IMG/VR virus record: IMGVR_UViG_3300009593_000093
Coordinates: 1-28,139 of that record
Length of the DNA: 28,139 bases
Strand: one strand, 5' to 3'
From: a virus
Shown: positions 4,423 through 28,139 of the stretch, piece after piece
Position numbering within the stretch: the stretch's first letter is position 1
How the letters are laid out: every line of letters starts with the position of its first letter
Made by a program: the position numbers and the translations under genes
The notes under the pieces: generated by a model
The model's input: only the letters and a program-made list of their open reading frames with translations
What the model was told of the DNA's origin: nothing
Databases searched by the model: none

Positions 4423-4467
4423 GCGAGTGAACAATATAGTTATACTAATTTATATTTATTCACTCGC
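4423..4467. repeat. Perfect 9-bp inverted repeat around the gp20 promoter
   Basis: GCGAGTGAA at 4423-4431 pairs exactly with TTCACTCGC at 4459-4467, leaving a 27-base loop. The distal arm overlaps two bases of the late box at 4453-4460. No T-run follows on the minus strand, so a Rho-independent terminator is unlikely. Function is unknown; a protein-binding site or an mRNA hairpin in read-through transcripts from gp19 are both possible. Confidence 0.6.
4453..4460 (-). promoter_or_regulatory. Late promoter box AATAAATA upstream of gp20
   Basis: The minus strand reads AATAAATA, fitting the NATAAATA late box of T4-like marine phages (T4 consensus TATAAATA). If initiation is about 6 bases downstream, as in T4, transcripts start near 4447. 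That gives a leader of about 39 bases containing the gp20 Shine-Dalgarno. Confidence 0.6.
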
Positions 4468-5104: not shown

Positions 5105-5118
5105 ATTTTTTCTCCTTA
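5105..5118 (-). promoter_or_regulatory. Shine-Dalgarno of gp19 overlapping the gp18 stop
   Basis: The minus strand reads TAAGGAG followed by an A-rich spacer and the gp19 ATG. The gp18 stop codon TAA provides the first bases of AAGGAG. It is one of the clearest ribosome sites in the window and ties gp19 translation to termination on gp18. Confidence 0.8.
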
Positions 5119-7425
5119 AACTGCGTTAACCACTTCAGAAAATTCTACTCCGGAAGCCACGGCAACAAAGTTTAATCCTATGAAGTTAATTGATTTAGTG
5201 GGTTTGACAAAAATATCTCCTCTAAACTCATTTCTATTTATAACAGCAGGTGTATTATTTGTCTGGTCACATATTACTCTAAACTCTTCAATACCTCTTC
5301 GTCCTTGAATATCTCTCAAGAAAGGTTCAATTATTGAAACAAAATTCAAACGAGTAAAATCATCATTGAATTCGAATAAAAGATTTTCAGCCGCATTTGC
5401 TATAGCCTTTTCTAGAATAATAAAGAGTCTTCTTACATTAATTCTATCAAAAGAAGATGGTCTTGCCAACATGGTTTTATCACCAAAAAGCACTTTTCCT
5501 TTACCTGGGAATGATGCAATTGGATTAATACCTGAAGTATAAAGATCATCTCTTTCTGCTTGCGTTGGTACATATGCTAATTCAATAACTCCCTTAACAT
5601 TTCCTCTTGTAAATCCTGCAGGAGAAATGAAAGGATTAGCATTATCTGCTTGGGCACAAAGACCTGCAATATCTCCGTTTAAAGGAACCCACCTATAAAT
5701 GGAGTTATACCTGTCAAACATGTACTTGTAATTTCCATCCATAACTGCATAACTAGATGATGGTAATACATTTCTTCTAGCAACAATATTACCTACTTCA
5801 GAACCCTCATCATTAACACAATCTGCTTGTTCTGGAGATAAGAAAACTACACAATCTTTTCTAGACTCTGCTATTTCATTAACAAGATATGTTGCTAAAG
5901 TATTGGATGCTTCTGCTGAAATTAATAAAGAAACATCTACTTTTGCAGGATCTTTGAAATAACTATAAGCAGTAATTTCATCTGAATCAGAAGAATCTGC
6001 TCCGTCAACACCACCTGAAAAACTAGCGGTCATGATACCATTTGCGCCTGTTGCACTAAAGGAACCAGCAAATTTTGCTGAAGTGTTTCCTTGATCTATA
6101 GTAGCACCCCAATCATAAGTCAATTTAGCGGCTCCACCATCTGTGGGAGCATCACCCATTGCATCATGATCTGTCCATCTAATCCAATCAGACTGATCAT
6201 TTATTACTTCTTTGTAATAAAGAGAATCTCCTGTGCTTCCTACTGCTCCATTTGCTACTGATAAACGCACATAATTTTCAAGAGGTTGTTTATTCCTTAC
6301 AAGAGCATCACCTCGTCTATCTTTTCCTCCGGTAATCTCTCCTTGTTCATCCACTAATACTGCATGAATTTCATCTCCAACATCTTTTGAACCTGATTTT
6401 TCATAAGCATACACACTTGTTAAAGGTGCTGATGGAAAATCATCTGCAAATTCCCATCTTCTTTCGAATGTTGCACCTGCAGTAATTGCTCTATCAAGTT
6501 TTGATGAAATTGTTAATGATGTTGTACTAGCAATTGCAGTTACTTTTTTATCAACTTTTACACCACCATTATCAGTAAATGTAATTATATCTCCTACATG
6601 TAACTGTCTAGTAAAATTAGTATCTGCTCCTGTTATGGTTAAACTATTGATTGGTCCAGAAATTGTACCAATCATATTAACGGCAGGTTCGTTAAATGCT
6701 GATCTTTTTCGTCTTACAAGAGTAGCACCTGACATTGAAGAAGAACCACCAAGACCAACTAATTCTGTGTCTTCTGTAGAAACAACAAAAGAAGTATTGG
6801 ATGTAATAGCAGTTACTACACCAGAATTTGCTCCATGAACAATTACATCTCCAACTCGTAGTTCCGCATCTGCTAATGCAGTTCCGCTTCCAGTAACTAA
6901 TGTAGTAGAATTACCATTTGCAAAGGTTCCTGTAAGAGCAACATCAGTATTAGTATCTAAAGAAACAGTTCCATCGCTGGTTACAGTTGTATTTGCTCTA
7001 TCTGCTATACAAATAGACATTTTCATTGAATTACCAAGAGTTCCTGGATATTTTGCCGTAAAACTTGTTCCTGAAGTTGTTGTAGATTCGTATGTATTCT
7101 GATACTCTTTGCTATTTCTAATTAGAATTGCAGTACCTCCAGTTACGGCATTTTTTGCACTAGAAGTATTGGCCGCACGAACAACTCTTAATTTGTTTGA
7201 ATAACTCAAAAAATTAGCGGCACTAAAAAAAGTTTTATATGTATTGCCATTTGGCTTACCGAATACATCGACCAATTGATTTTCATTGGAAATTGTTTGT
7301 ACGTCCTCTAGTGGACCCCACGCCAAATTTCCTGCTATAGCACCATCTGAAACAGAAGGAACTGGTACTCTAGTGGTTAAATCGATCTCTGCTACGGCTA
7401 CGCCTGGACTGACCTGAAAAGCCAT
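5116..7425 (-). CDS. 18: Tail sheath protein gp18
   Basis: This 769-residue protein exceeds T4 gp18 (659). Gp18 forms the contractile sheath around the tube. The N-terminus (SPGVAVAEIDLTTRVP) and the C-terminal domain (FEFNDDFTRLNFVSIIEPFLRD, then VICDQTNNTP and FVKPTKSINFIGLNFVA) are typical of T4-like sheaths. Residues about 164-240 and 252-323 hold two copies of a module carrying a VGD-I motif (ELRVGDVI and QLHVGDII). This module also appears in the DUF4815 and gp7-like proteins and probably decorates the outer sheath surface. The start has a GGGAG Shine-Dalgarno seven bases upstream. One or two late boxes lie in the shared upstream region, and gp19 follows after 11 bp. Confidence 0.96.
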   Translation of the reverse strand: MAFQVSPGVAVAEIDLTTRVPVPSVSDGAIAGNLAWGPLEDVQTISNENQLVDVFGKPNGNTYKTFFSAANFLSYSNKLRVVRAANTSSAKNAVTGGTAILIRNSKEYQNTYESTTTSGTSFTAKYPGTLGNSMKMSICIADRANTTVTSDGTVSLDTNTDVALTGTFANGNSTTLVTGSGTALADAELRVGDVIVHGANSGVVTAITSNTSFVVSTEDTELVGLGGSSSMSGATLVRRKRSAFNEPAVNMIGTISGPINSLTITGADTNFTRQLHVGDIITFTDNGGVKVDKKVTAIASTTSLTISSKLDRAITAGATFERRWEFADDFPSAPLTSVYAYEKSGSKDVGDEIHAVLVDEQGEITGGKDRRGDALVRNKQPLENYVRLSVANGAVGSTGDSLYYKEVINDQSDWIRWTDHDAMGDAPTDGGAAKLTYDWGATIDQGNTSAKFAGSFSATGANGIMTASFSGGVDGADSSDSDEITAYSYFKDPAKVDVSLLISAEASNTLATYLVNEIAESRKDCVVFLSPEQADCVNDEGSEVGNIVARRNVLPSSSYAVMDGNYKYMFDRYNSIYRWVPLNGDIAGLCAQADNANPFISPAGFTRGNVKGVIELAYVPTQAERDDLYTSGINPIASFPGKGKVLFGDKTMLARPSSFDRINVRRLFIILEKAIANAAENLLFEFNDDFTRLNFVSIIEPFLRDIQGRRGIEEFRVICDQTNNTPAVINRNEFRGDIFVKPTKSINFIGLNFVAVASGVEFSEVVNAV

Positions 7426-7467: not shown

Positions 7468-7475
7468 TATTTATT
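7468..7475 (-). promoter_or_regulatory. Late promoter box AATAAATA upstream of gp18
   Basis: The minus strand reads AATAAATA 43 bp before the gp18 ATG, nearly the same distance as the box before gp20. A start about 6 bases downstream gives a leader of about 37 bases that includes the GGGAG Shine-Dalgarno. Confidence 0.6.
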
Positions 7476-7513: not shown

Positions 7514-7521
7514 TATAAATA
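7514..7521 (+). promoter_or_regulatory. Late promoter box TATAAATA abutting the HNH start
   Basis: This is a perfect T4 late consensus on the plus strand. Only four bases (AAAC) separate it from the ATG at 7526, and no Shine-Dalgarno is present. With T4 geometry the transcript would start at or next to the start codon. Confidence 0.6.
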
Positions 7522-7525
7522 AAAC

Positions 7526-7948
7526 ATGGATAAGGCACTTGAAAGATTTGAAAAGAAGATATTAAAGTCTAATGATTGTTGGTTCTGGACTGCTAGTAAG
7601 ACAAAACAGGGTTATGGTATGTTCTCATATAAGGGAAAATCAGTACCTGCACATAGATTTGCGTATATTGCGTATAAAGGGACTATAGAACACAATAAAA
7701 TAGTACATCAATCATGCAATAATACGTTTTGTGTAAATCCAGAACATTTATATCTTACAACAAAAAGTGAAACTAGAAATAAATTCTATGAAATGAGAAT
7801 TAATCCTGAAATGATATTTAATGAATCTATAAGATATCTGGAAAAATTAAAAAAGATAAGACCGGATTTGAAGATAGAAATAGAAAAATTAGTAGATCAA
7901 GTTAAGAATCCAACGAATATTCATCGTATTAATGTAAATAATCAGTAG
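7526..7948 (+). CDS. HNH homing-endonuclease-like protein
   Basis: This 140-residue protein is one of two genes on the plus strand. It carries the HNH_3-type pattern of phage homing nucleases: CWFW (18-21), GYGMFSYKGK (29-38), HRFAY (43-47) and H-x-x-C-x-x-x-x-CVNPEHL (61-75). His61, Asn71 and His74 would be catalytic, with Cys64 and Cys69 likely structural. It sits between gp17 and gp18, divergent from gp18, and its last 20 bases overlap the end of gp17. Such free-standing nucleases cut related phages lacking the insertion and spread by repair; a target in gp17 or gp18 is inferred from position. The C-terminus (90-140) is helical, charged and of unknown role. The N-terminal MDKALERFEKKI looks complete, supporting this start despite the absence of a ribosome site. 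Confidence 0.9.
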   Translation: MDKALERFEKKILKSNDCWFWTASKTKQGYGMFSYKGKSVPAHRFAYIAYKGTIEHNKIVHQSCNNTFCVNPEHLYLTTKSETRNKFYEMRINPEMIFNESIRYLEKLKKIRPDLKIEIEKLVDQVKNPTNIHRINVNNQ

Positions 7949-9569: not shown

Positions 9570-10990
9570 TTTAACTCGTAGTTAACCATACCGTGTTTAG
9601 TTGTATAATCCAATGCACTAGACATTGAACCTATAATTTTTAATTTTGCTTTTTTAGGATATACCATTTTTATTAATATTTCGCCTTTTCTCCATGCAGA
9701 TTTATCTAAATTTGCTTGATAGAAATTTTTTCCACCTATAATATTTTCTACATAACTCTTTGATGTAGGTTCTGATTCTAAAGCATTTGCAACTGTATAA
9801 TTAAAAAAGGATGGAATTGTAAAAGGATAATTTGTTCTAATTGTTTCTTTTACAAGAGTTCCTCCACCAAAAGGTTTATTTTTAATAAAATAATCTTCTA
9901 CAGAATTAGATACTTCATCAATTTCAATATTTTCTTTTTGTGTTACTGATTTATTTGTTGCTAATTTTTGAATTGTTTTGTAAACAGAATGATTTGTATT
10001 CGTAACCAGCGTTCCTTTTATTTTTAAAATATCTCTAATACCTACTTCCATCATTATATGTTTTGATTTTGTAAAAGATTTTCCTCCAACTATTTCTGAA
10101 GTAAATCCCATTTTTCTTGCAGTCTTACACATTTGTCTAAAAAAACAATCTTTCCATCCTGTATAATATTTTAGTCCATAAGGAAGAACATTTGTCATAA
10201 ATGATGCGGCCGCTCCTGCACCATACTTACTTGATATACTAACTGTAGCATCAGAATAAATTAATGCACTATCAACAAGTTTAAATGCAGGATCAGTTGG
10301 AATTACAAACAACTTAATATTATTACCCAACATATCAGAAGGAATACAAACTTGTGACAACTGACCCTTAAATGCTAAAAGACCAGGAAGAACTTCTCCA
10401 AAATATATTCCTAATTCATCAATATGACTATCATCTAATCCATTAAGGTCTATCTTGTGTAAATTAGTTTGGTTTAAATATGTTTTTAATTTTTTTACAA
10501 CATATGGATTTGTCGCATTTAATTTTTGTTCAGAACCAAGTATTATACTATTTTTCAATTGATCAAAACTATCAAAAGACATTACTGGAACATCTTTTTG
10601 TGTTAGAACTGTTATCTTTGAGAGGACTCCAGATTTAGTAAATGTTTCTGCTAAAAGTTCTAATTTAGGTGGTCTTTCTGTTCCTCTATCATCAGTAGGT
10701 TTTCTAATTTTAGAAATTAAAATATAACCTTGTTTTCTTTGATATTCTATATGAGCATATTTTGTATTGCTTATATCCTCAAATTTATTTGAAAGAAGTT
10801 TTATTTCTGTTCTTGGATTGATTTTGATATTTAACTTTTTAACATCATTACCACTTTTTTCAAACATTTCTGCAAACTGGCCATTTTCTGTTCTAATTTT
10901 TAAACTTTCCCAGTCTGAATTATTAGTAATGTATCTAACAAAGACGGGATTTGTTGGATCTTTTCTGTCTCGTTGACCCAAATGCGCCAT
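9566..10990 (-). CDS. Unrecognised 474-residue protein between small and large terminase
   Basis: I do not recognise this gene. It starts one base after the gp16 stop and ends in an ATGA overlap with gp17, so it lies inside the terminase operon, where T4 has no gene. It is soluble-looking and lysine-rich, without a signal peptide or clear membrane segment. Visible points: an N-terminal QRDRKDPTNPVFVRYITN; a central VDSALIYSDATVSISSKYGAGAAAS (about residues 237-262), where the D-then-SxSSK spacing weakly resembles the acid-lysine core of PD-(D/E)XK-type nucleases; then a basic CKTARKMGF region; and a C-terminal YPKKAKLKI. A role in DNA processing or packaging is only a guess from context. The ATG has no strong Shine-Dalgarno and is probably served by coupling to gp16. 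Confidence 0.85.
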   Translation of the reverse strand: MAHLGQRDRKDPTNPVFVRYITNNSDWESLKIRTENGQFAEMFEKSGNDVKKLNIKINPRTEIKLLSNKFEDISNTKYAHIEYQRKQGYILISKIRKPTDDRGTERPPKLELLAETFTKSGVLSKITVLTQKDVPVMSFDSFDQLKNSIILGSEQKLNATNPYVVKKLKTYLNQTNLHKIDLNGLDDSHIDELGIYFGEVLPGLLAFKGQLSQVCIPSDMLGNNIKLFVIPTDPAFKLVDSALIYSDATVSISSKYGAGAAASFMTNVLPYGLKYYTGWKDCFFRQMCKTARKMGFTSEIVGGKSFTKSKHIMMEVGIRDILKIKGTLVTNTNHSVYKTIQKLATNKSVTQKENIEIDEVSNSVEDYFIKNKPFGGGTLVKETIRTNYPFTIPSFFNYTVANALESEPTSKSYVENIIGGKNFYQANLDKSAWRKGEILIKMVYPKKAKLKIIGSMSSALDYTTKHGMVNYELK

Positions 10991-12377: not shown

Positions 12378-12385
12378 TATAAATA
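12378..12385 (+). promoter_or_regulatory. Late promoter box TATAAATA abutting the BppU-like gene start
   Basis: A perfect TATAAATA on the plus strand is separated from the ATG at 12391 by five bases (GTCTT), with no Shine-Dalgarno. T4 geometry places the first transcribed base on the A of the ATG. Confidence 0.65.
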
Positions 12386-12390
12386 GTCTT

Positions 12391-12741
12391 ATGGCACTAT
12401 CAATAAAAACTCAAGGCGAAAATTTAACAATGTATCAAGGCAGTAACTTTGAAAAAGTTTTTACTGCTAAAGATGCAAATAACTCCAATGTGACCATAAG
12501 TACCGGTACCTGTGCTTCTAAAATGAAAAAGAACCACACAACTACTAATACTTCTTGGATTCTTACCTTTTCAACATCTGTTTCAGGTAGTAATGTTACA
12601 ATTACTGCAAATTCTACAACAACTGGTGAAATGGCTTCTGGTTTATATGTATATGATATTGAATATCTTCAAAGTGATAACGTGACAAGGGAGAGAGTTG
12701 TTGGAGGAATGATTACAGTCTTACCAGAATCTACAACTTAA
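12391..12741 (+). CDS. BppU-N-like small virion protein
   Basis: This plus-strand gene of 116 residues is a lone insert between gp15 and gp14. The pattern matches a small beta-sandwich family seen in many phages and related to the N-terminal domain of BppU-type baseplate proteins: an N-terminal IKTQGENLTMYQGSNFEKVF, a central SGSNVTITANSTTTGEM, then GLYVYDIEYLQSDNVTRERVVGG and a closing MITVLPEST. The G-x-YVYD core and the final ITVxPE strand are the best markers. A minor structural or decoration role is likely but not shown. Its TAA shares the four bases TTAA with the stop of gp14 on the other strand. Its transcript would run antisense into gp14 unless terminated, and no terminator is visible. 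Confidence 0.8.
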   Translation: MALSIKTQGENLTMYQGSNFEKVFTAKDANNSNVTISTGTCASKMKKNHTTTNTSWILTFSTSVSGSNVTITANSTTTGEMASGLYVYDIEYLQSDNVTRERVVGGMITVLPESTT

Positions 12742-16347: not shown

Positions 16348-16561
16348 CTTTGTCCTTTAACAACTGTAATATTTTATTTACATTTTCTTTTATACTATTA
16401 ATTTCAGACCTTAAATTATTTATTTCATTTTCAGAATTCTTTATTGAAGTCACTTGCATTAATTTTTGTCTGTGCTTCATTAAAGCCTTTTGATCTGTTC
16501 TTATAATCGCATTAGAAAATGGATCTCTATTATATCTTGGGTCATCTGTTTTTATTATCAA
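16334..16561 (-). CDS. Small coiled-coil protein with TTG start
   Basis: This 75-residue protein begins at TTG (16559-16561), which shares TTGA with the stop of the DUF4815 gene, so translation is probably coupled. Next comes a motif I associate with small conserved proteins of T4-like marine phages (DDPRYNRDPFSNAIIRTDQKAL, about residues 6-27). The C-terminal half (about 40-70) is a heptad-patterned helix, INNLRSEINSIKENVNKIL. The closest in-frame ATG would remove the whole conserved motif, so the TTG start is preferred. The function is unknown. Its position between two virion fibre/baseplate genes suggests an assembly factor or a small structural adaptor. It overlaps the fibre-like gene by 14 bases. 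Confidence 0.75.
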   Translation of the reverse strand: MIIKTDDPRYNRDPFSNAIIRTDQKALMKHRQKLMQVTSIKNSENEINNLRSEINSIKENVNKILQLLKDKDGNI

Positions 16562-19500
16562 GGCTTACCCTCACTATCAAGAGCAATTGCACGTAAATTA
16601 ATCATCTTAGGCATTCCTATAAAAGAATCTTGTGATGCTCTATCTAAATGCATAACAACTTTTATTGAAAATGTTCTAAATCTAGTATATTTTGCTCCAC
16701 CACTATCTACATAAGAAATTACTTCATCAAAAGTTTTAAACTCAAATCTCTTAAAATCTGCTTCGTTTAATGAATATGTTGTATCTGCCGTTTTTTGTTC
16801 CATGAGAAACCATGGTTTATCGTCAAAATTTTCTGAATCATCACCAGAAAGAACTTTACAGTAAGCATAAATGCTGGCACCTCTTGGTTTGTATGCATCA
16901 AGATATACTTTAAGATCAACTGCATCAAATCCTTCTTCCAAAGTAACCCGTCTTGAAATGTATTTAGCGGTTCCATTACCACCAGAAGAAAATGATATTA
17001 CATTTGTTGTTGATAAAGTTGCAGTATTATTAGCACCTTCTCCCACAATACTAACAACGGCACTTGATGTAACTTGTACATTATCAGATACAGAAGATGT
17101 ACCACCATCGTAAATTGTAACAGTTGGTGTGGAATAATATCCTGCACCACCGTTCTTAACAACAACTTGATTTATGATACCATTTGCATGAACATTGGCC
17201 GCTAAGGTTGCAGTATTTGAACCTGTATCAGGATCAGAAACTACAAACACACTTGTATTACCATCAGAAGCAACATTACTTGATGCGTTTCCAACTTGAG
17301 ATCCAATATACCCAGTACCAAAATTTGAAACTACAACATCAGAATTTGATATACTTCCATTGTTAATAACATTTTCAATAGTAATTACACCTGTTCTTAA
17401 TTCATCTATTACAGGAGTTAGTAAAGTATTGGCAGTTTCAAAAAATGCATTAATAGTAAAACTATTATTTGCGGCTTGTGGATATGTAATTTGTTTCTGT
17501 TTTTTAAGTTCAACATTTTTATTCAACTTAAACTTAGTTGCAGTACCTTTTGTTGCACCAGCAACATCTGTAGCAAAATATTTAAATTCTGTGAATGTAT
17601 TTGCAAACTCCAATACTTCTGTCATTAAATTAAATGAATCGAATGATGTATTTGAAGAACCATTGGCCGCGGAAATATCTGAATTATCCAGTCTAGCATA
17701 TGCATTTGAAGAAGTAAATTCACATCGATTTAATTGAAACATTAGTCCTGAGTCTAACACTTCTTCCCAAACACCTGCATTTGAAGGTTTATAGAAACTT
17801 CCAATATAAGGTTGCTTTGTTATTTTCTTTGATGTTCCTGTATGAAATGCACCATATTCAAAACCATATATTTTATACGAACTACTATTTGTCTGTAAAC
17901 AAATTGCATATTCATCTGGAGCAAGATAGATAGGATGATCAAATTTAAACTGTGTTCTTGATCCTCTATTAGAATTACTTTTATTTGCAGTTCCTGAATT
18001 TCCTAAAAATCCTTCTGGAAAACCACCTGATGTGTTTGCAACTGGCGTACTTGTATTTGCAGTAATTTTTCCAGGAGTTAATACAACTTCACTTCCAGGT
18101 ATAATCAATGATGTACTTGGCATCCCATTAACCATAGGTCGTAACTGTAAATTAACAGGTGTTTTTGTTCCTACTGCCGTATCTTTTGAATTAAAAAATA
18201 ATGTTACTGAATCAATGAAAACTCCTGCAGGATATAAATTTTTATCGACAAAGAAAGTTTGAGCCATTGGATTCATATAATCTGTAGACTTTGATGCCCT
18301 TCCATCAGAAGAGGATCTAGTAACTCTTTCTTCTTTCATATTCTCACGCCTAGAAATAAATGGTCTAGGTGAGATCAATCCTAATTCATTCTTAGCATCA
18401 ATTACTCCTGCAGAATAAAATATATCTTCTGCAACTGAAGTTGTTAGAGCAGGAATATTATCTGGTTCATCAGTTATTCTAAACAGATTTTGTGATCCTG
18501 TATAAGTGTCTGGTGTAATATTAAATTCACCACCAACAACCCCATCATTAGAAACTCTAAGTTGTGAATCTTCCCATCCGTATTTTACAATTGTAGAGAT
18601 AGCACCATTCGCACCAGTTTGATCTCCTCGTATTACTGCTCCGGAAGAAAAAGCGGCTTCGGTAGACAAGTCAGTAAGCAATACTGTAACATTATTTTGT
18701 GTATTTCTATCACCCATGTAAACAATTTTAGCAGTATTTCCAGCATTCGCACCAGAACCTTGAATTGTAACTTGCTCAAAATTTCCTGGAGTTGTTCGAA
18801 ATACATTAGATGTACTTACATTAGATAAACCGCAAAGTGTGGCCTGTTTAACATTTGCACTAACATTTCTATCGCCAAAATATGCATATACATTTTGATT
18901 AGGTTTTAAACCTTTAGCAATAAAGGATACTGTCTGTTGTCTTACTTTTGGTATTACACTTAAATTAACTACTTTGTTTCCAATAGTTTTAATTATTTTT
19001 TCTGGAACACTTCCTGTACTTAATCCAGTTAATGTTTTTGTTTGATTAGTTGTTTTTGCTTTTCTATCATTAGTACCTACATCACCAACATCTCTAATAC
19101 CCTCTTTAACATTCTTATTAATCTGTGCGCCAGACCAAATTTCTTCCCAATCATTCCAATGAGTACCATGACCTTTATTAGTTAATGCACTTGAATTCCA
19201 TCCATCATACTGTCCTTCTACATTAACTTTAACAGTAACCTTACTCGTTTGATCATACCAAATATCACTATAAGGATCTAATTTCATTTGTCCAATATAA
19301 TTTTGAACCGAGAAAGGATTTATCTTTAAAGTTTTTTGAATATTCTTTCCTTCATTCGTTCCTGTAAGAGGCATTTGTATAAAAGTATTTGCCGCAAATG
19401 GAAGAGTTAATATTCCAGAATTGTTTACTAAGGTTGAAAAGGCAGTACCACCAGATGAATTTGCATTAAAATTCATTCTATGTAAATCTGAACTAAATCC

Positions 19501-22500
19501 AGGCCTTAAATGTTTATTTTCAAAATCAATCGCACAAGCATAATCTGGATTAAATACATCTCCGATATTGTGACCTCCAAATGGATCAACAAGAATGCCG
19601 TTTTTAAATCTATCTTGATTATTGGCATCTGTAATAATTAAACCATCTGCTTCTTTTTCCAACAAACTGAGAGACACATAATATTCAAGATTTTCAATTC
19701 TTCTTTCAAGTTTACCAATATCTCTCATTGTAAATCTTTTATTATCAACATAGTTTACTTTTATATCATCCGAATTAAAAGTATATGCTGGCATTTCAAG
19801 ATTATACAATGTCATTGAATCGTCATCATCAGCAGGTAATTGTGGAAACTTATCTGATACACCTTCAAGAACACTAAATGTTTTATCTCTGTTTAATACA
19901 ATCTTATCTTTTCTAGGAATATAATATTCATAATCTGTATCAAATGTATAATCGTAATCAGGCATTGCCTTTTCATTAAACACATTTGCAGTAGCAGTAA
20001 TATCGTTTGTTTGAGATTTGACTCCATCAGAAGTTTCATATCCTAATCTTTTAGGTCTGAAATCAATCATATCTCTTAACTCTACTTTAACACCAGTTGT
20101 TGGACTTGTATATGAAGGAACATCATCATATAATGTATTTCCTGATCCCGCATAAATGTAAGAGTCTACTGTAAATGGTCCATAACCTGTATGATTATAA
20201 TAATCTACAATTGCTATTACTTGTCCAACTGGTTTGTCTTGTCCAGTTTTTAAAGTTATAGTACCATAATCATAATAATTGTCTTTTTGTCCATTATCAA
20301 ATACAAACTTGCTAGTTATATTATGAGCATTCGCCGCTCCTTCACTAACGGCCGCGGAAATCATAGCATTAGTAAGTTCTTTAGTTGGATTTAATGAATC
20401 TACAACTGCAACTAAATTTTTAATATCTGCTATTTTTAAACTATTTGCTACACCAGGAACAACATTTATTGATGTTCCCATATAAATCTGTCCAGAATTT
20501 GCTTGAATCGTATTTGTAGATGATGGGCCCACATTAGAAACAGTAACATTTCCTGAAACTAAAGTCTTTGTTCCGATACCACCATTAGACCTCGTTGCTC
20601 CAGCCGCTTTATACATCATTGTCGCATAAACCCAAATAGTATTAGCACTATAATCTTTTGCACCTGAAGTAGTTGATTGTACGTTAATTGTTAATTGGTC
20701 ACCGTCATCATTTAATGAAATGTATCTACCATCTCCTAAAGAAGAACCTGAAGTATTACTAAACTCTACATAATCTCCTTCTCCAGGAATAAAAACTTGA
20801 TAATTAGAATCTGCTACAGTACCAGAAACATTTCCTGCTCCAGATGCGGGATAAAATACCTCTCCTGCTTCTGATGCCGTTAGAGTTGCAGAGTTACCAG
20901 TAAGAGTTGTAGTAAAAGACCTTTTTAATTTATAAGATGCTTTTGTCAAACTTCCAAGTGTTTTGTTTTGAAAAGGAAATAATAGAGACCTTTGATCTTC
21001 ACTATTGTCAAACAATACAGTATTACCTGTTTCAGTTGCATCATCTTTTCCACTAATATCAATGTTCATCGCCTTAGTTATTGTTGTACCTGATGAAGTA
21101 GCAATTGAACTGATATCTTTAACTCCGAAATTTAAAGAATAAGTAGTATCTGCTTGTGTAGGTTGTGTTAGTGGAGTTTCTAGTTGTGCAGTATAAGCGG
21201 ATGCTTGAGCAGACCCATCACCGTTTAAATCAAATCCCATAGCGGCTTGTGAATTTGCACCTGTCCAAGCAATAATTTTTCTTGTGTCTGAACTATTAAC
21301 ACCCAAATAAGAAGTATTAACTGTTATTGTTGATCCGTATAATGCATTTACAGTAGGATATATTGCAGTGGTTGAAATTGTAGAAGATGGATGAGCATTA
21401 GCGGTTTCTCTTAAATTGACAAGAGATGAATTTGCGGCTATGGCCGCTTCTACAGTTCCTTCTACTTTAGAAAATCTAAAATCAAATAAATGGGCATCAA
21501 AAACTGCTGGAAATTTTATATGATAAGTTCCGTTTGCATCTGCTCCATATCCAAATTCAGAACTAACAGTAGAAGACCTTCCTTTTTTGTGATCTAATTG
21601 TCTTAGTCTAACTGTTCCTATTTTTGTATTTGCAATTGTTGCCGCACTTGTTGTATCGATTGCGACATATTTAAATGCTCCATTAGAAGTAGAAATAATA
21701 GCATTTGCTGATACTGATCCATGACAATAACTTGTTGCGGGCCATTTAACACAATGCAAATCCATTAGGTCCATTCCTGTACCACCAGATGTTGCATTAA
21801 TAGTTGAAGCATTTACTCCTAATTCCCAAGCAGTATTAGAAACAACATCTGATACAACTGCATAGGGACCAAACTCCACTCCTTGCTTTTCTGCGGTAAC
21901 TGATTCTGTATCTCTTGCTTTATTTAAATTAATATATGTAGGAGTAATCGTTTCAAATTCGAAACCTTTTACATATGCTTTTCCTGCACTCATTTCCGCA
22001 GTTACTTTTGATGAAATTCCTATCTTTTGATTTTTACTTCCATCACCTAATGCAGATCCAGTAGTTAGTGTAAGAGCGGTTGTATTTGTTACTCCTGCAA
22101 CTTCAGCAGTTTTCATTGTATTACCAGAATAAAATATAGAATCACCTACATTTACATCAGCAATAAAATTAGCACCATTTGCAGTAACAGTTGTACTTGT
22201 GTTACTTACTGTTCTTTCAGTTGCAGTTCCTCCTATCTTATGATCTACAACATCAAGTAAAAATGGTCTAACAGTAAAATCTCCTGAAGCATCAAATGTT
22301 CTTCGTGCTAAAATCTTTTCTATATTACCTAAAACAGGAAATTTAACTTCTTCAATCTTTTCACCATTTTCAAGTCTCAATAATTCAATAAAATCATTAT
22401 CTGCACTTCTAGTTATTGGATCAGTAACACCTTTAACATATTCTGGACTACCTGTTGCAGGCGTTGAAGGTTTTCCTTGAATTAAATAAGAAAATGTTGT

Positions 22501-23463
22501 AGTTGATCCAACTCCGGAAATCGTAAATTTACCATTGTATTCTGCTTCAGTTGCTCCTGAAACTACTATAGTATCTCCAACAGATAAGTTGTGGTCAGTA
22601 GTTGTTGTTATACTTACTGTACCTGATCTATTGTCTTTTGTGTTTACAGAAAAAGTAAGACCGGAAGATGCTATTGTTTTTCCTTCATCATAATAATCTT
22701 TAGAAGCAAGTTGCAAATCAATTTTATATCGATTTGCTCCAGGAGCGGTATAGTTAGGAGTTCCTATAGCATTGTCTAAAAGATCGGCATCTTCTATACT
22801 CGTAACTATTGTTTCTACAATAGCCAAGCCTACTCTTTTTGAAGGATTATTATTTACAGTATCTAAAATGAGAGATTGAGGAGAGACATATAAAAAATAA
22901 CCGCCTACATAGAATAATCCTTCATTAACACTAATTATAGAACCTATGCCAGATGCTAAATTTGTAGTTGTATCTGCTCCTGTTAAACCTTCGTTTTCTC
23001 CTGCCACAAGAGCAAAATATGTTGTTCCTTCATCAATTGTGTTAATCGTTTCATTATCTAAGAATTTAGTATCATCAACATAATTAATCATTAACACATC
23101 TAATGTTGTTGTAGAGAATGCCTGACTTACTACAACTTCTGCTTTTGCACCAGATGATACACCTTGTATGATACGACCATCAAAATTACTTGCGACAATA
23201 GCCGCACCAGCATATTGTGGCTGAAGTTTCAAAGAACTTATTTTACTATTTAATACAAGTTCTGCACCTAAGACCCTAGAACCATCTTGATAAAGAGTAT
23301 CACCTGTCTTCTCTAATTGGTTTTGAAGAATAGATTGTATTTGGTTTAGTTCTCTTGCCTGAACAGAATATCCAGGACGATATAGAACTTTGTAAAATTT
23401 ATTTACTTCATTGAAATCATCATAATATGGTGATATGTTAAAATCTTGTGTTAATTTAGGCAT
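16558..23463 (-). CDS. Giant DUF4815-type baseplate/fibre structural protein
   Basis: This 2301-residue protein is the largest in the window. The N-terminus (FNISPYYDDFNEVNKFYKVL, then RPGYSVQARELNQIQSILQNQ, about 8-50) is the signature of the DUF4815 family of T4-like marine phages. A second typical block lies near residues 1130-1280 (VELRDMIDFRPKRLGYE, YYIPRKDKIVLNRDK, KLERRIENLEYYVSLSLLE). A third lies near 1725-1860 (MAQTFFVDKNLYPAGVFIDSV, LQLRPMVNGMPS, FKFDHPIYLAPDEYAI). Small modules shared with gp7, gp8 and the sheath are inserted between them. It follows gp8 by three bases and occupies the place of T4 gp9-gp12, so a peripheral baseplate or fibre-attachment role is inferred. The start has a GGAG nine to ten bases upstream. 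Confidence 0.88.
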   Translation of the reverse strand: MPKLTQDFNISPYYDDFNEVNKFYKVLYRPGYSVQARELNQIQSILQNQLEKTGDTLYQDGSRVLGAELVLNSKISSLKLQPQYAGAAIVASNFDGRIIQGVSSGAKAEVVVSQAFSTTTLDVLMINYVDDTKFLDNETINTIDEGTTYFALVAGENEGLTGADTTTNLASGIGSIISVNEGLFYVGGYFLYVSPQSLILDTVNNNPSKRVGLAIVETIVTSIEDADLLDNAIGTPNYTAPGANRYKIDLQLASKDYYDEGKTIASSGLTFSVNTKDNRSGTVSITTTTDHNLSVGDTIVVSGATEAEYNGKFTISGVGSTTTFSYLIQGKPSTPATGSPEYVKGVTDPITRSADNDFIELLRLENGEKIEEVKFPVLGNIEKILARRTFDASGDFTVRPFLLDVVDHKIGGTATERTVSNTSTTVTANGANFIADVNVGDSIFYSGNTMKTAEVAGVTNTTALTLTTGSALGDGSKNQKIGISSKVTAEMSAGKAYVKGFEFETITPTYINLNKARDTESVTAEKQGVEFGPYAVVSDVVSNTAWELGVNASTINATSGGTGMDLMDLHCVKWPATSYCHGSVSANAIISTSNGAFKYVAIDTTSAATIANTKIGTVRLRQLDHKKGRSSTVSSEFGYGADANGTYHIKFPAVFDAHLFDFRFSKVEGTVEAAIAANSSLVNLRETANAHPSSTISTTAIYPTVNALYGSTITVNTSYLGVNSSDTRKIIAWTGANSQAAMGFDLNGDGSAQASAYTAQLETPLTQPTQADTTYSLNFGVKDISSIATSSGTTITKAMNIDISGKDDATETGNTVLFDNSEDQRSLLFPFQNKTLGSLTKASYKLKRSFTTTLTGNSATLTASEAGEVFYPASGAGNVSGTVADSNYQVFIPGEGDYVEFSNTSGSSLGDGRYISLNDDGDQLTINVQSTTSGAKDYSANTIWVYATMMYKAAGATRSNGGIGTKTLVSGNVTVSNVGPSSTNTIQANSGQIYMGTSINVVPGVANSLKIADIKNLVAVVDSLNPTKELTNAMISAAVSEGAANAHNITSKFVFDNGQKDNYYDYGTITLKTGQDKPVGQVIAIVDYYNHTGYGPFTVDSYIYAGSGNTLYDDVPSYTSPTTGVKVELRDMIDFRPKRLGYETSDGVKSQTNDITATANVFNEKAMPDYDYTFDTDYEYYIPRKDKIVLNRDKTFSVLEGVSDKFPQLPADDDDSMTLYNLEMPAYTFNSDDIKVNYVDNKRFTMRDIGKLERRIENLEYYVSLSLLEKEADGLIITDANNQDRFKNGILVDPFGGHNIGDVFNPDYACAIDFENKHLRPGFSSDLHRMNFNANSSGGTAFSTLVNNSGILTLPFAANTFIQMPLTGTNEGKNIQKTLKINPFSVQNYIGQMKLDPYSDIWYDQTSKVTVKVNVEGQYDGWNSSALTNKGHGTHWNDWEEIWSGAQINKNVKEGIRDVGDVGTNDRKAKTTNQTKTLTGLSTGSVPEKIIKTIGNKVVNLSVIPKVRQQTVSFIAKGLKPNQNVYAYFGDRNVSANVKQATLCGLSNVSTSNVFRTTPGNFEQVTIQGSGANAGNTAKIVYMGDRNTQNNVTVLLTDLSTEAAFSSGAVIRGDQTGANGAISTIVKYGWEDSQLRVSNDGVVGGEFNITPDTYTGSQNLFRITDEPDNIPALTTSVAEDIFYSAGVIDAKNELGLISPRPFISRRENMKEERVTRSSSDGRASKSTDYMNPMAQTFFVDKNLYPAGVFIDSVTLFFNSKDTAVGTKTPVNLQLRPMVNGMPSTSLIIPGSEVVLTPGKITANTSTPVANTSGGFPEGFLGNSGTANKSNSNRGSRTQFKFDHPIYLAPDEYAICLQTNSSSYKIYGFEYGAFHTGTSKKITKQPYIGSFYKPSNAGVWEEVLDSGLMFQLNRCEFTSSNAYARLDNSDISAANGSSNTSFDSFNLMTEVLEFANTFTEFKYFATDVAGATKGTATKFKLNKNVELKKQKQITYPQAANNSFTINAFFETANTLLTPVIDELRTGVITIENVINNGSISNSDVVVSNFGTGYIGSQVGNASSNVASDGNTSVFVVSDPDTGSNTATLAANVHANGIINQVVVKNGGAGYYSTPTVTIYDGGTSSVSDNVQVTSSAVVSIVGEGANNTATLSTTNVISFSSGGNGTAKYISRRVTLEEGFDAVDLKVYLDAYKPRGASIYAYCKVLSGDDSENFDDKPWFLMEQKTADTTYSLNEADFKRFEFKTFDEVISYVDSGGAKYTRFRTFSIKVVMHLDRASQDSFIGMPKMINLRAIALDSEGKP

Positions 23464-23466
23464 CCG

Positions 23467-25248
23467 TTAAAACTCCAATACGATCTTAAAATCTTCTACT
23501 TGATTCTGCAATCTAGTAATTTTGGCTCTATTTTCTATGTAAAGAATGTCCCCACTATAAGGTTTCATTCCAGGTTTTGAAACACCATCTTCTGAAATTG
23601 TTCCTGTTGAACTGGAATTTGCTCCTGTCACAACATTAGTATCAGCAAAGGTTCCTTTAACCTCATTTATTCTTAATGTATTATTATTTAGAAAATCTAC
23701 AACAACCCCATTGGCGGTACTATCTGCTAAAGATGATCCTAAATATACTTTTTCATCTGGTTGAAAAGATCCTGCAACACCACCAACTTTTAAAGTTGTT
23801 GATTGATCCGTTAAAGAATCTGTAAAAAATGCAAGACTATTTGCAGTTTGTAAAGGATCTCTTACTAATCCAACTTGTCTAAAATCATTAGATGTTGTAA
23901 ATCTTCCAGATTCGTTTCCTGATATACGCACATCAATCATAACTCTATTTCCACCCAATTCCTCAATAGAATTTTTACCGTGACCACCAACAGGTCCAAT
24001 GACAACTTCAGCAGTTGCTCCTGTTCCATGTGACGAATTAGCATAGATAGTAGGTTCTGCTACAGTAAAATTTTGTCCTTTTTGAGTAACAACTACTTCT
24101 GTTACGCCATGAGTTGCGTTTCCTCTTGATCTACCTTTAAATCCAGTCCCATCACCATTCAATGATACTGATGGGGTTACTTCATATCCAGAAGTAACAT
24201 TTGGTGTAATTGTAAAAGCAGGATCTACTGTTATTCTTCTAAGCAAGGAGTCATATTGTGTAATTGTAGTCTGTTCCCCTTGTCCAGAGTTGTTTACAAC
24301 AAAAATAGTAGAATTTACATATAAACCATCTATACTATTATTTGCACTTGTTGATAACTGTAATACAGTAGAATTTGTCACACTTGCAAAAAGTCCTGTA
24401 TCAAATTGATATGTTGACTGTGGTTCAATCGAAATTGTTGCTCTTGTATTAGAAGTATCACCCAGAACCACCTCTCCATTAATAAATTTAGTATTTCCTG
24501 TAGATGGTCTATATGTCAAATTGTTTGCCGCGGCAACATGAGAAATAAGAGTACCATATTGATTTGATGTTTGTCCTATTAAAACTTCTCCAGGAGTAAA
24601 GTCCTGATCATCTCCAACTGCATTCGTAGGTCCTGTAGTAAAGGTAACTGTAAAATCACCATTTGATAATTTGTTAATGATATCAACTTGACCGTCAATA
24701 GCGGCATCTTCTACTGCAACCTGTTTAGCACTAACACTTTGTTGTACAGGAAAATATTCAGAAGTTACAAATTTTAAAGTATCTTGTGCAGTAATGGTAT
24801 ACATATACTTCCACTTATAACCATCGGCAGTCTCAATAACTGCGGTACCTGTACCAGTTGGTTTAATAGTAGATGTTCCATTCGATAAATTATTTTGAAG
24901 ACATTTATAAACATTCATTTCTTCAGTAAGAACATAAAAGTTGTTTGCTAATTGGTCAGGATTTTTATGAGTATATGCAGTATATGTCGAGTTTGATGAC
25001 CAATCTTCTCTTGCAAGAATATGTTTAACATCTGTAGCAGTAACTTTCTTGGCCGCAATCATTTGATCCCAATAAGAAAATGTAGTATTTGCTAACGCCT
25101 CATTTGGTGCAGGGGGATTATCTTCATCTCCCCACTCCTGAACCTTACCGATAAACAAATATAAATTTGTTGCAGTAGTCTCACTAAGGGATTCTATGAA
25201 TTGTTCTGCGTTATGTATTTTAAATTTTGTTGTTACTAATCTAGCCAT
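23467..25248 (-). CDS. 8: Baseplate wedge protein gp8
   Basis: The product has 593 residues, against 334 for T4 gp8, a wedge protein bound to gp7 and gp10 in the baseplate. The ends match T4: RLVTTKFKIHNAEQFIESLS and LYLFIGKVQEWGDE at the start, DVKHILAREDWSSN and GDGY-like ETADGYKWKYMYTI, and the final YSGDILYIENRAKITRLQNQ and ILEF-type strand. The middle (about 217-560) is enlarged by at least four copies of a beta-module (FTPGEVLIGQTSN, FINGEVVLGDTSN, FQPDEKVYLGSS, FADTNVVTGANSSST) and by a GPVGGHG block. The ATG is fixed by the conserved N-terminus, yet no Shine-Dalgarno exists and a late box lies five bases upstream. Confidence 0.92.
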   Translation of the reverse strand: MARLVTTKFKIHNAEQFIESLSETTATNLYLFIGKVQEWGDEDNPPAPNEALANTTFSYWDQMIAAKKVTATDVKHILAREDWSSNSTYTAYTHKNPDQLANNFYVLTEEMNVYKCLQNNLSNGTSTIKPTGTGTAVIETADGYKWKYMYTITAQDTLKFVTSEYFPVQQSVSAKQVAVEDAAIDGQVDIINKLSNGDFTVTFTTGPTNAVGDDQDFTPGEVLIGQTSNQYGTLISHVAAANNLTYRPSTGNTKFINGEVVLGDTSNTRATISIEPQSTYQFDTGLFASVTNSTVLQLSTSANNSIDGLYVNSTIFVVNNSGQGEQTTITQYDSLLRRITVDPAFTITPNVTSGYEVTPSVSLNGDGTGFKGRSRGNATHGVTEVVVTQKGQNFTVAEPTIYANSSHGTGATAEVVIGPVGGHGKNSIEELGGNRVMIDVRISGNESGRFTTSNDFRQVGLVRDPLQTANSLAFFTDSLTDQSTTLKVGGVAGSFQPDEKVYLGSSLADSTANGVVVDFLNNNTLRINEVKGTFADTNVVTGANSSSTGTISEDGVSKPGMKPYSGDILYIENRAKITRLQNQVEDFKIVLEF

Positions 25249-25253
25249 ATGTT

Positions 25254-25261
25254 TATTTATG
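25254..25261 (-). promoter_or_regulatory. Late promoter box CATAAATA abutting the gp8 start
   Basis: The minus strand reads CATAAATA, then five bases (AACAT), then the gp8 ATG. No Shine-Dalgarno lies in the 27 bp between the upstream stop and gp8. T4 geometry puts the first transcribed base on the A of the ATG, predicting a leaderless gp8 message. Confidence 0.6.
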
Positions 25262-25275
25262 CTAATTAAAAAAGT

Positions 25276-28139
25276 TTATGTTTGAATATACTTCGGAATC
25301 TGGTTTTCAAATGATGCTAATGTTTCAAATTTAAACTTACCTTCATTTGAACGAATTCCAACGTATGCCGCATTAGATGTTCCTATTCCGTCTTCAAGTA
25401 ATAATAATCCTGTAGCGGTCGAATTAATTGTACAATTTAGAAAATTGTTTGATCCATCATAAGGATTTGATAAAGATATAGTTCCTTCACTTCTTTCTAA
25501 ATCAAAATTTCTTAATGAATGCAAAGTTATAGATTGATTATTAGTACCATCACCTAATGCTCTATTCAGAGTTAAAGTTGATCCATCTATTGTTAATATC
25601 TTTGCTCTTTCTGCCGTATTAGAGGATAATGAAATAACATCATCAACCATCAAATCTATACTAAAATAAGAATTTGATGCCACTAAACTTACATTACCTG
25701 TAAATCTTCCATTTACATTAGTTGTTCCTCTTACCGTTGGTTCATGCATCTGATAATGTTGAATGTCTTCATTATCAAATTTAACTGCTACAGGATCAAG
25801 TTCATTTAATACTACAGTTTCTCCAGAACTTGTAATAAAATTATTACCATCTTCCAAAATAAAATTAAATTCTGTATCTGTGCTTATCGGTGTATTTGCA
25901 ATCAAACAAGATGAATTAATGATTTCAAGAACTTTTGTTTCTTCAGATGTCGATATTACTTTTATTCTATCGTCTATTCTAAAATCTGCTTGAAAATCTG
26001 TACCAACTCCAAAGATTGCGTTAGACTTCACATAATCAAATGAACAAGTTGTAACTGCCTCATTGTTTCGATATATACTATCCTGTAAACCAATAATTGA
26101 TGTTCCATCTTCTTCTAATACGAGATCACCTATTAAATCTCCTGTAGTTCCTTCTAATATCAAATTATATGTATCAATATCAATTGCCGCCGTATTTCCT
26201 GTAGTTGAATTAGCATTACTGGTAGTATCAAATTGACCATTACATGAATGTAAAATTAATACATTGTTGTTCGAATCATCCAATTCATGTCTTAAAACAA
26301 TTCCTTGTATTTGACCACCTGTTTCGGCACTTATTTGAGTAACTACACTATTTGCAACAAAATTAGCATTAGCACTAAAAGTAGCAGGTACGGTCATTGT
26401 CTTAGGTGATTTTAGTCCTATAATAGAAATAACATTTGCTGATGTTGATGCAACTGTTCCAGTCATGTATTTTTCTAATCTTAATTCACCATAAGAAACT
26501 TCAAAACTCTGTTCGTTATCAACGATTACTTGATCTCCTTCTTGGTATGTTGTTCGGAAATCAGTTGCTATTGGATTACTTAATGCTAATTTTTCATTAT
26601 TTTCTGTAACAAGTGTTTCACTTGCTTCGGAAATCATATATGCATTTGCAACTCCGAGCATAATATCTGAATTACCTGTTATAGTAACTGTACCTAAACT
26701 TAAATTTTGATTATCATTAAAAACAATTTTATGTTTAGGATCAGTAGAATCTTCCATTAAAAGATCATCACCATCTTCTTTTAAAGCCTTGTCTCCACCT
26801 TCAAATGATATTCTACTATCAAATCCCATATTTAATTCAACGGCATCAGGTGTAAATTCTCCAAATAATTTTGTTCCTACAGGATGTAATAATTTAAAAA
26901 TAATTTCTTGATAATCATTAAGTTGTTTATTCGCAATAAGAGAATAAGAATAATCTTGATAAAAATCACTATCAATAATTTTTTTACTTGAACTCAATTG
27001 TCCATTTTCATCAAGATATACTCCTGTTCCAGAACTGACGGCTCCAATAACTGCATTCAAAGTTGCATTGTTTGCACCAAGACCAGGTAATGTTATTTGA
27101 GGAGAAGATGTAAAACCAACACCAACGTCCTGAATCAAAACAGATTTTATAGAACCAGAACCTGCATCTTCAGCGGAAACTCCAATAACAGAATTGTTTC
27201 CCAACTCTCCGCCTGGAGAAAAAGCAACACCAGTATTTACAGATGCTATCGCACCTGAATTAGCACCCGTAACTTCTTCATTTGATATAAAATCAACAGT
27301 GGAAAAGGCATACTCATCATCAGTGGTATGAGAAAAAGGTAGTGTAAATTTTACTGAAACATTTTCATTATATGTTACTGTTCCTGTAGCAGGAGAGGCT
27401 GGAGATCCACTTACAGTATATGTAAAGGCGGTTGAATTTGCTACAGTAATAGTTGCATTACCATTATATTCTGTTTGATTTGCTCCTGAAACAGCAAGTA
27501 TTTGTCCATTTGATAATCCATGGGCACCATATGTAATTGCGGTTGCAGTTGAACTATCCCGAGTAAGACCCGTTATTCCAAAACTTAGTGTTTGATAACC
27601 ACCTGTTACATCTACACCTCCTGATGTAGGATACCAATCACACTTTGAATTATTGTTTGCACTATTAAAAAGTTCTCTAGCATCAATACCTCGTCTATAT
27701 TTTATAGTATTAACAGTTGAGGCTCCTCCGGAAACAAACTGTAAATGATAAACAGAAGGATAAGAACTTCCTAAATAAGAACTATTATTTACAAGCATAT
27801 CATTTCTTTGAGCAGTAGGTATTTTTTGTGTAACAAGAGTATCTAAAAATTTTATAGTTTTTACTCTCATTCTAGTAGGATCTTTAATAGTATCTTCTGT
27901 GGCTACAGTACCAAAAAATGTTCCTATCTTATTACCACTATTCGCATAAATTTTTTCGCCTGGATCAAAAAAATCAGTAATTGCATTTGTTGTAGCAAGA
28001 GCATCCGGATCTGAATTTAAGTTTAAAATCTGTACAGAATTTTCTGTAAATTGTGCAGTAGAAGTTTCTACAACTGATATTTTGGGAATAGCCTCATAAC
28101 CAGATCCAGTACCAGTTGTCTGTACTGTTCTAATATGTC
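25276..28139 (-). CDS. 7: Baseplate wedge protein in gp7 position, N-terminus beyond window
   Basis: The frame is open from the right edge to the TAA at 25276-25278: 954 full codons are visible and the true start lies outside. The internal ATG at 27870 is not preferred because coding sequence continues upstream (EKIYANSGNKIGTF, then EDTIKDPTRMRVKTIKF). It directly precedes gp8, as gp7 does in T4. A QDYSYSLIANKQLNDYQEII-KLLHPVGTKLFGE segment (about 26870-26960) resembles the gp7 C-terminal region of T4 (SRSYYVM...RFVHPVG). Gp7 is the central clamp of the wedge that binds gp8, gp10 and gp53. Several repeat modules lie on both sides, including a YNG module (27360-27570) and VGD-like modules (25515-25727 and 25880-26065). 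The low similarity outside the HPVG block keeps the gp7 label tentative. Confidence 0.72.
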   Translation of the reverse strand, partial: HIRTVQTTGTGSGYEAIPKISVVETSTAQFTENSVQILNLNSDPDALATTNAITDFFDPGEKIYANSGNKIGTFFGTVATEDTIKDPTRMRVKTIKFLDTLVTQKIPTAQRNDMLVNNSSYLGSSYPSVYHLQFVSGGASTVNTIKYRRGIDARELFNSANNNSKCDWYPTSGGVDVTGGYQTLSFGITGLTRDSSTATAITYGAHGLSNGQILAVSGANQTEYNGNATITVANSTAFTYTVSGSPASPATGTVTYNENVSVKFTLPFSHTTDDEYAFSTVDFISNEEVTGANSGAIASVNTGVAFSPGGELGNNSVIGVSAEDAGSGSIKSVLIQDVGVGFTSSPQITLPGLGANNATLNAVIGAVSSGTGVYLDENGQLSSSKKIIDSDFYQDYSYSLIANKQLNDYQEIIFKLLHPVGTKLFGEFTPDAVELNMGFDSRISFEGGDKALKEDGDDLLMEDSTDPKHKIVFNDNQNLSLGTVTITGNSDIMLGVANAYMISEASETLVTENNEKLALSNPIATDFRTTYQEGDQVIVDNEQSFEVSYGELRLEKYMTGTVASTSANVISIIGLKSPKTMTVPATFSANANFVANSVVTQISAETGGQIQGIVLRHELDDSNNNVLILHSCNGQFDTTSNANSTTGNTAAIDIDTYNLILEGTTGDLIGDLVLEEDGTSIIGLQDSIYRNNEAVTTCSFDYVKSNAIFGVGTDFQADFRIDDRIKVISTSEETKVLEIINSSCLIANTPISTDTEFNFILEDGNNFITSSGETVVLNELDPVAVKFDNEDIQHYQMHEPTVRGTTNVNGRFTGNVSLVASNSYFSIDLMVDDVISLSSNTAERAKILTIDGSTLTLNRALGDGTNNQSITLHSLRNFDLERSEGTISLSNPYDGSNNFLNCTINSTATGLLLLEDGIGTSNAAYVGIRSNEGKFKFETLASFENQIPKYIQT

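Follow-up and report, generated by a model that had tools for sequence, protein, structure and literature searches.

Does transcription of the baseplate wedge gene gp8 begin on the start codon itself in the T4-like phage represented by the 28,139-nt stretch analysed here (IMG/VR virus record IMGVR_UViG_3300009593_000093; hereafter the window)? The question is raised by positions 25261-25240, which read CATAAATA AACAT ATGGCTAGA on the minus strand and are embedded in the wider context ...CATAAACTTTTTTAATTAG CATAAATA AACAT ATGGCTAGATTAGTAACA... around the gp8 start. This direct read confirms that five bases separate a T4-type late promoter box from the gp8 ATG, as stated in the original prediction, according to which gp8 appears to be expressed from a leaderless late transcript. 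T4 late boxes are located at -13 to -6 (PMC1524935), and the geometry used in that prediction is hence documented. Combined with a gap of exactly five bases between box and start codon, it predicts that transcription starts (+1) at the A of the ATG. The features of this junction, together with further late boxes of the window, are compiled in Table 1.

Table 1 Features of the gp8 junction and of other late boxes in the window (promoter and transcription start assignments are predictions)
Feature	Position	Strand	Remarks
Late promoter box CATAAATA of gp8, T4-type (predicted)	25254..25261	-	Expected register -13 to -6; no variation in ATAAATA among 18 distinct relatives
Spacer AACAT, box to start codon	25249..25253	-	5 bases; AT at -2/-1 invariant in relatives
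gp8 ATG	25246..25248	-	A at 25248 is the predicted +1, from T4 late promoter geometry (PMC1524935) and base/codon signatures
gp8, baseplate wedge subunit, 593 aa	23467..25248	-	PHROG 438, E 1.5e-102
gp7-like baseplate wedge gene, upstream of gp8	25276..27870	-	ORF open to window end; true start beyond
Late box TATAAATA	12378..12385	+	5 bases (GTCTT) before ATG at 12391; gap 5 in 9 clade contigs
116-aa tail-fibre-assembly-like gene	12391..12741	+	PHROG 3304/1084; same predicted leaderless arrangement
Late box TATAAATA	7514..7521	+	4 bases (AAAC) before ATG at 7526
HNH endonuclease gene	7526..7948	+	PHROG 3593, E 1.2e-22; start adjoins box
Late box AATAAATA (contrast)	7468..7475	-	42 nt upstream of gene 5116-7425, SD GGGAG
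Gene gp18-like by position	5116-7425	-	Box, leader and SD
Late box AATAAATA (contrast)	4453..4460	-	44 nt upstream of gene 2723-4408, SD-like CAGGA
Gene gp20-like by position	2723-4408	-	Box, leader and SD-like CAGGA

Two further premises of the prediction, the lack of a Shine-Dalgarno (SD) sequence and a start codon fixed by conserved N-terminal residues, also withstood inspection. No SD is present at the usual place in the window junction, nor would one be possible there, as the box itself fills this place. The start codon can be regarded as secure because the N-terminal motif LVTxKF.hNAEQF begins at residue 4 of gp8 in all relatives of the window's clade, and because the nine codons that separate the ATG from the preceding in-frame stop include no in-frame ATG, GTG, TTG or CTG; any other gp8 start codon is thereby ruled out. 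RNA structure around the gp8 start is not unusual (z -0.2 and -0.45), and no excess of sigma-70 promoters or terminators was detected at the gp7-gp8 junction. Downstream of gp8, the window encodes a 2301-aa protein of unknown function (16558-23463, minus strand; PHROG 358), which occupies the position of the VrlC-annotated genes in HTVC008M, Mosig and P-SSM4.

The original prediction had named an alignment of the gp7-gp8 junction in related phages as a means of checking whether box and spacer are conserved. Among tblastn-confirmed relatives, NATAAATA followed by 5 nt and ATG is found at gp8 in 26/26 clade loci that include the gp8 start (52-100% identity). When the 18 distinct junctions are compared, ATAAATA at -12 to -6 does not vary and -2/-1 are always AT, with -13 being variable; a T at -13 is poorly conserved in late boxes of other T4-like phages, too (PMC1524935). 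This fixed arrangement also bears on the possibility that ribosomes reach gp8 mainly on a gp25-gp6-gp7 transcript, by coupling to gp7 or by reinitiating once past its stop, and that the box itself is a weak promoter or not used at all. Such a scenario would be compatible with the short distance of 27 nt between the gp7 end and the gp8 ATG in the window, with a gp7 stop (TAA) lying inside the box in some relatives, and with the absence of a detectable terminator between both genes. However, the gp7 stop is found at -33, -30, -24, -17, -15 or -11 from the gp8 ATG while box and spacer stay in place, and coupling to gp7 was therefore rejected as the cause of the fixed spacing. Moreover, a box at gap 5 also precedes genes that have no same-strand gene before them, namely 12391+ in the window and gp2 and gp4 in HTVC008M. 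Expression of gp8 mainly by readthrough is thus considered unlikely.

At the same time, leaderless gp8 seems to be confined to the window's clade. In remoter relatives (≤48% identity), gp8 is mostly preceded by an SD, by a box at a distance of 19-32 nt, or by both, and in the pelagimyophages HTVC008M and Mosig it has a box with leader, which makes leaderless gp8 a clade trait. As L029, which branches as sister to the clade in the gp8 phylogeny, displays a box 32 nt upstream of gp8 together with an SD-like AGAAGGA, the putative leaderless state looks derived.

While the original prediction dealt with gp8 only, the same spacing recurs at many other genes. Across 14 clade contigs (495 kb), [AC]TAAATA is positioned at gap 5 before 42 ORFs, whereas the remaining gaps between 0 and 20 add up to about 6. 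Outside the clade, gap-5 ORFs number 12 in HTVC008M, 6 in Mosig, 10 in G018 and 6 in G021, the last two being contigs of near-complete size; each gap other than 5 between 0 and 11 yielded only 0-2 in the clade and in these four genomes. P-SSM4 has 2 such ORFs, and none were found in T4, Syn9, Ochrobactrum phage OC, G014 or G015; describing the gp8 arrangement as unlike T4 practice was thus correct, as neither T4 nor Syn9 possesses a single gap-5 gene. Plain pattern counts for gaps 5/4/6 gave 50/4/12 in 14 pelagimyophage-like contigs (0.99 Mb) and 0/2/2 in 14 cyanophage contigs (1.29 Mb). It should be considered that the gap counts rest on mechanical ORF starts and that the 14 clade contigs are not independent, the independent units being about 5 gene families in the clade and about 20 in the pelagimyophages. 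The annotated start codons of HTVC008M, checked for the stretch 1-50,000, coincide with the gap-5 ATGs. In the same phage, gp2 and gp4 are divergent, with start codons at 18916-18943 that are 26 bp apart and a gap-5 box each, so that there is no room for leaders.

Could such boxes simply be chance matches in AT-rich DNA? Near-matches to TATAAATA in the window are indeed no commoner than in shuffles (80 found, 94 expected), and the case consequently rests on exact spacing and conservation rather than on single matches. None of nine control heptamers, including permuted A/T ones, gave an independent peak at gap 5; the peak of TAAATAA at gap 4 merely reflects the real box shifted by one base. Additionally, ATG is found at +1 of all boxes 48 times in the clade against 4.8 expected (about 10-fold). 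Given these controls, the conservation in all 26 loci and the 42 gap-5 starts, chance was rejected and can be regarded as practically excluded.

The five gap-5 families of the clade comprise gp8 (gap 5 in 14/14 clade contigs), gp25 (identified by PHROG 261), the 116-aa tail-fibre-assembly-like protein, the HNH endonuclease and a 193-194-aa family which groups with the DNA end protector gp2 of HTVC008M. For gp25 and gp2, the gap-5 arrangement is common to the window's clade and the pelagimyophages. Overall, boxes precede late (virion) genes, i.e. gp8, gp25, gp2, gp48-like and tail-fibre assembly genes. Hence, judged from these signatures, gp8 is one case of a class and not isolated, and the best reading is that the putative leaderless late class covers gp8 plus at least ten other gene families. 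The window's HNH gene (7514-7948, plus strand, box included) is a neighbour of the gp18-like and terminase genes but is encoded on the other strand. Owing to its own box-adjacent start, this gene may be expressed alongside the late genes rather than earlier.

Genes of the same genomes in which the box lies further upstream provide an internal standard for SD usage. In the clade, an SD was detected at 0/42 gap-5 genes versus 22/22 genes with box plus leader; the corresponding figures are 0/6 versus 18/23 for Mosig, 3/12 versus 7/8 for HTVC008M, 1/10 versus 9/11 for G018 and 2/6 versus 13/22 for G021. Enrichment of ATG at +1 extends to the pelagiphages (42 seen, 6.7 expected; about 6-fold), while GTG, TTG and CTG at this position are near expectation and not clearly enriched in either clade or pelagiphages. 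Leaderless mRNAs in E. coli accept AUG only as start (PMC4611024). These data are pertinent to a different interpretation of the motif, namely that ATAAATA at -12 is no promoter but an A/U-rich element recruiting ribosomes for SD-less translation of messages with leaders. In favour of this, A/U-rich leaders frequently support translation without an SD, and the motif occupies the very place of the SD. Yet, ATAAATA is the core of late boxes of the T4 type, which read NATAAATA in cyanophages (PMC2984593), it is accompanied by an SD wherever it lies further upstream in the clade, permuted A/T heptamers lack such a gap-5 peak, and both the restriction of the +1 enrichment to ATG and the preference for a pyrimidine at -1 would be unexpected for it. 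A purely translational role of the motif is accordingly deemed very improbable.

The preference at -1 amounts to 39/42 gap-5 starts in the clade, 10/11 in HTVC008M and 6/6 in Mosig (total 55/59), as opposed to 108/261, 78/152 and 71/159 at other starts (total 257/572). Boxes with leaders carry a purine in 77-91% at the same +1 register; for clade boxes not followed by ATG the purine preference is weak (114/220), many of these boxes being chance matches. Even if the box acts as promoter, transcription could start 1-4 nt upstream of the AUG or heterogeneously, resulting in near-leaderless messages. T4-type starts are not necessarily precise to a single base, and the window's HNH gene displays gap 4, although its orthologues in G003, G004, G009 and G013 show gap 5. 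Against this stand the gap distribution, which peaks sharply at 5 and is nearly empty at 3, 4, 6 and 7, and the pyrimidine at -1, leaving a near-leaderless start possible but rather unlikely.

Regarding the required sigma factor, gp55 was found in HTVC008M and Mosig. It was not found in the clade contigs, all of which are structural-module fragments of ≤87 kb. Iterated profile searches likewise gave no gp55 in G014, a T4-like IMG/VR contig of 167 kb with about 50 late-type boxes; this contig may be incomplete or very divergent.

Taken together, the gp8 junction is by far best explained as the fusion of a T4-type late promoter with the start codon, albeit without RNA 5'-end data. Sequence, conservation, exact spacing, exclusion of the SD and specificity for ATG are direct observations, while promoter activity, a start at +1 on the A, leaderless initiation and late transcription in infected cells are inferred. 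With this reservation, we hold it very likely that gp55-type late promoters emit leaderless mRNAs here. During late infection, host RNA polymerase carrying the phage late sigma factor gp55 would open this clamp-activated promoter at ATAAATA and start RNA synthesis at, or within one base of, the A of the gp8 AUG. Ribosomes would then load onto the leaderless gp8 mRNA via its 5'-terminal AUG and initiator tRNA instead of an SD, and gp8 may additionally be read from the upstream gp25-gp6-gp7 transcript. Several late genes in the clade and the pelagimyophages would use the same promoter-start fusion, with other late genes of the same phages retaining promoter, leader and SD. The proposal of a leaderless gp8 is thereby supported by spacing and conservation, its 5' end remaining a prediction, whereas the wider class had been missed.

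In the textbook system of T4 late transcription, late mRNAs are equipped with leaders that contain ribosome-binding sites. Here, a set of virion genes of abundant ocean phages appears to have a T4-type promoter joined directly to the start codon, and messages of many genes in a marine T4-like group and in Pelagibacter phages probably begin at the AUG and are translated without the usual ribosome-binding sequence. The gap-5 rule predicts exact 5' ends for HTVC008M and Mosig and can aid in correcting start codons. In a survey of pelagimyophages, late-promoter prediction failed (PMC7029224); gap-5 boxes may explain why the search by cyanophage methods was unsuccessful. The same survey described ribosomal protein bS21 as core to pelagimyophages, setting them apart from cyanomyophages (PMC7029224). 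Pfam PF01165 (bS21) is present in HTVC008M (KC465899, 91237-91392), Mosig (9983-10132), G018, G019, G021 and G031 but absent from T4, Syn9, P-SSM4, OspM_OC, G014 and G015, and bS21 was not found in the contigs of the window's clade, which are fragments of up to 87 kb. This distribution, in which phages with the gap-5 class have bS21 and full-size comparators lacking the class do not, hints at a connection of bS21 to leaderless late translation but is phylogenetically confounded; it stays a correlation because the carriers all belong to one phage group and the clade contigs are fragments. More speculatively, pelagimyophages and the clade could have turned to leaderless translation for a block of their late virion genes, thereby switching ribosome use late in infection, a coupling to bS21 being possible in the pelagimyophages; we attach little credence to this idea at present. 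If true, bS21 could alter access to the anti-SD and favour messages with a 5' AUG over host and early messages with SD. The gap-5 class makes the unexplained phage bS21 gene testable as a translation-switch factor.

Compared to known systems, the T4 late promoters, served by the gp55 sigma factor, gp33 and the gp45 clamp, contain the same box, [T/N]ATAAATA, and the presence of gp55 in pelagiphages sharing the gap-5 class provides a further link. In T4, however, no ORF starts at gap 0-11 from a box and most boxes lie 21-40 nt upstream, whereas in the clade and the pelagiphages many are located exactly 5 nt upstream without SD. Cyanophages (S-PM2, Syn9, P-SSM4) use NATAAATA as late promoter motif (PMC2984593) and are the nearest named phages to the window in TerL (57-60% identity); unlike the window's clade, P-SSM4 gp8 combines box, leader and SD (AGGAGG), and no gap-5 site was found in the 1.29 Mb of cyanophage contigs. 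The pelagimyophages HTVC008M and Mosig EXVC030M share the gap-5 class, among whose members are orthologues of gp25 and gp2 of the clade. Both fall outside the clade in TerL and gp8 trees with unresolved deeper branching; the clade itself is monophyletic (100/100, TerL tree), its branching relative to pelagimyophages and cyanophages being unresolved there. Leaderless mRNAs of bacteria and phages such as lambda cI likewise have a 5'-terminal AUG, lack an SD and require AUG (PMC4611024), and phage transcripts have been remarked in general to be often leaderless (PMC5312081). The literature searched, which mostly did not cover subscription journals and hence does not prove absence, contained no description of late transcripts without leaders in T4-like phages. 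The leaderless phage cases known to us concern single genes; compared to these, a whole set of late structural genes of a T4-like phage appears to use a leaderless start.
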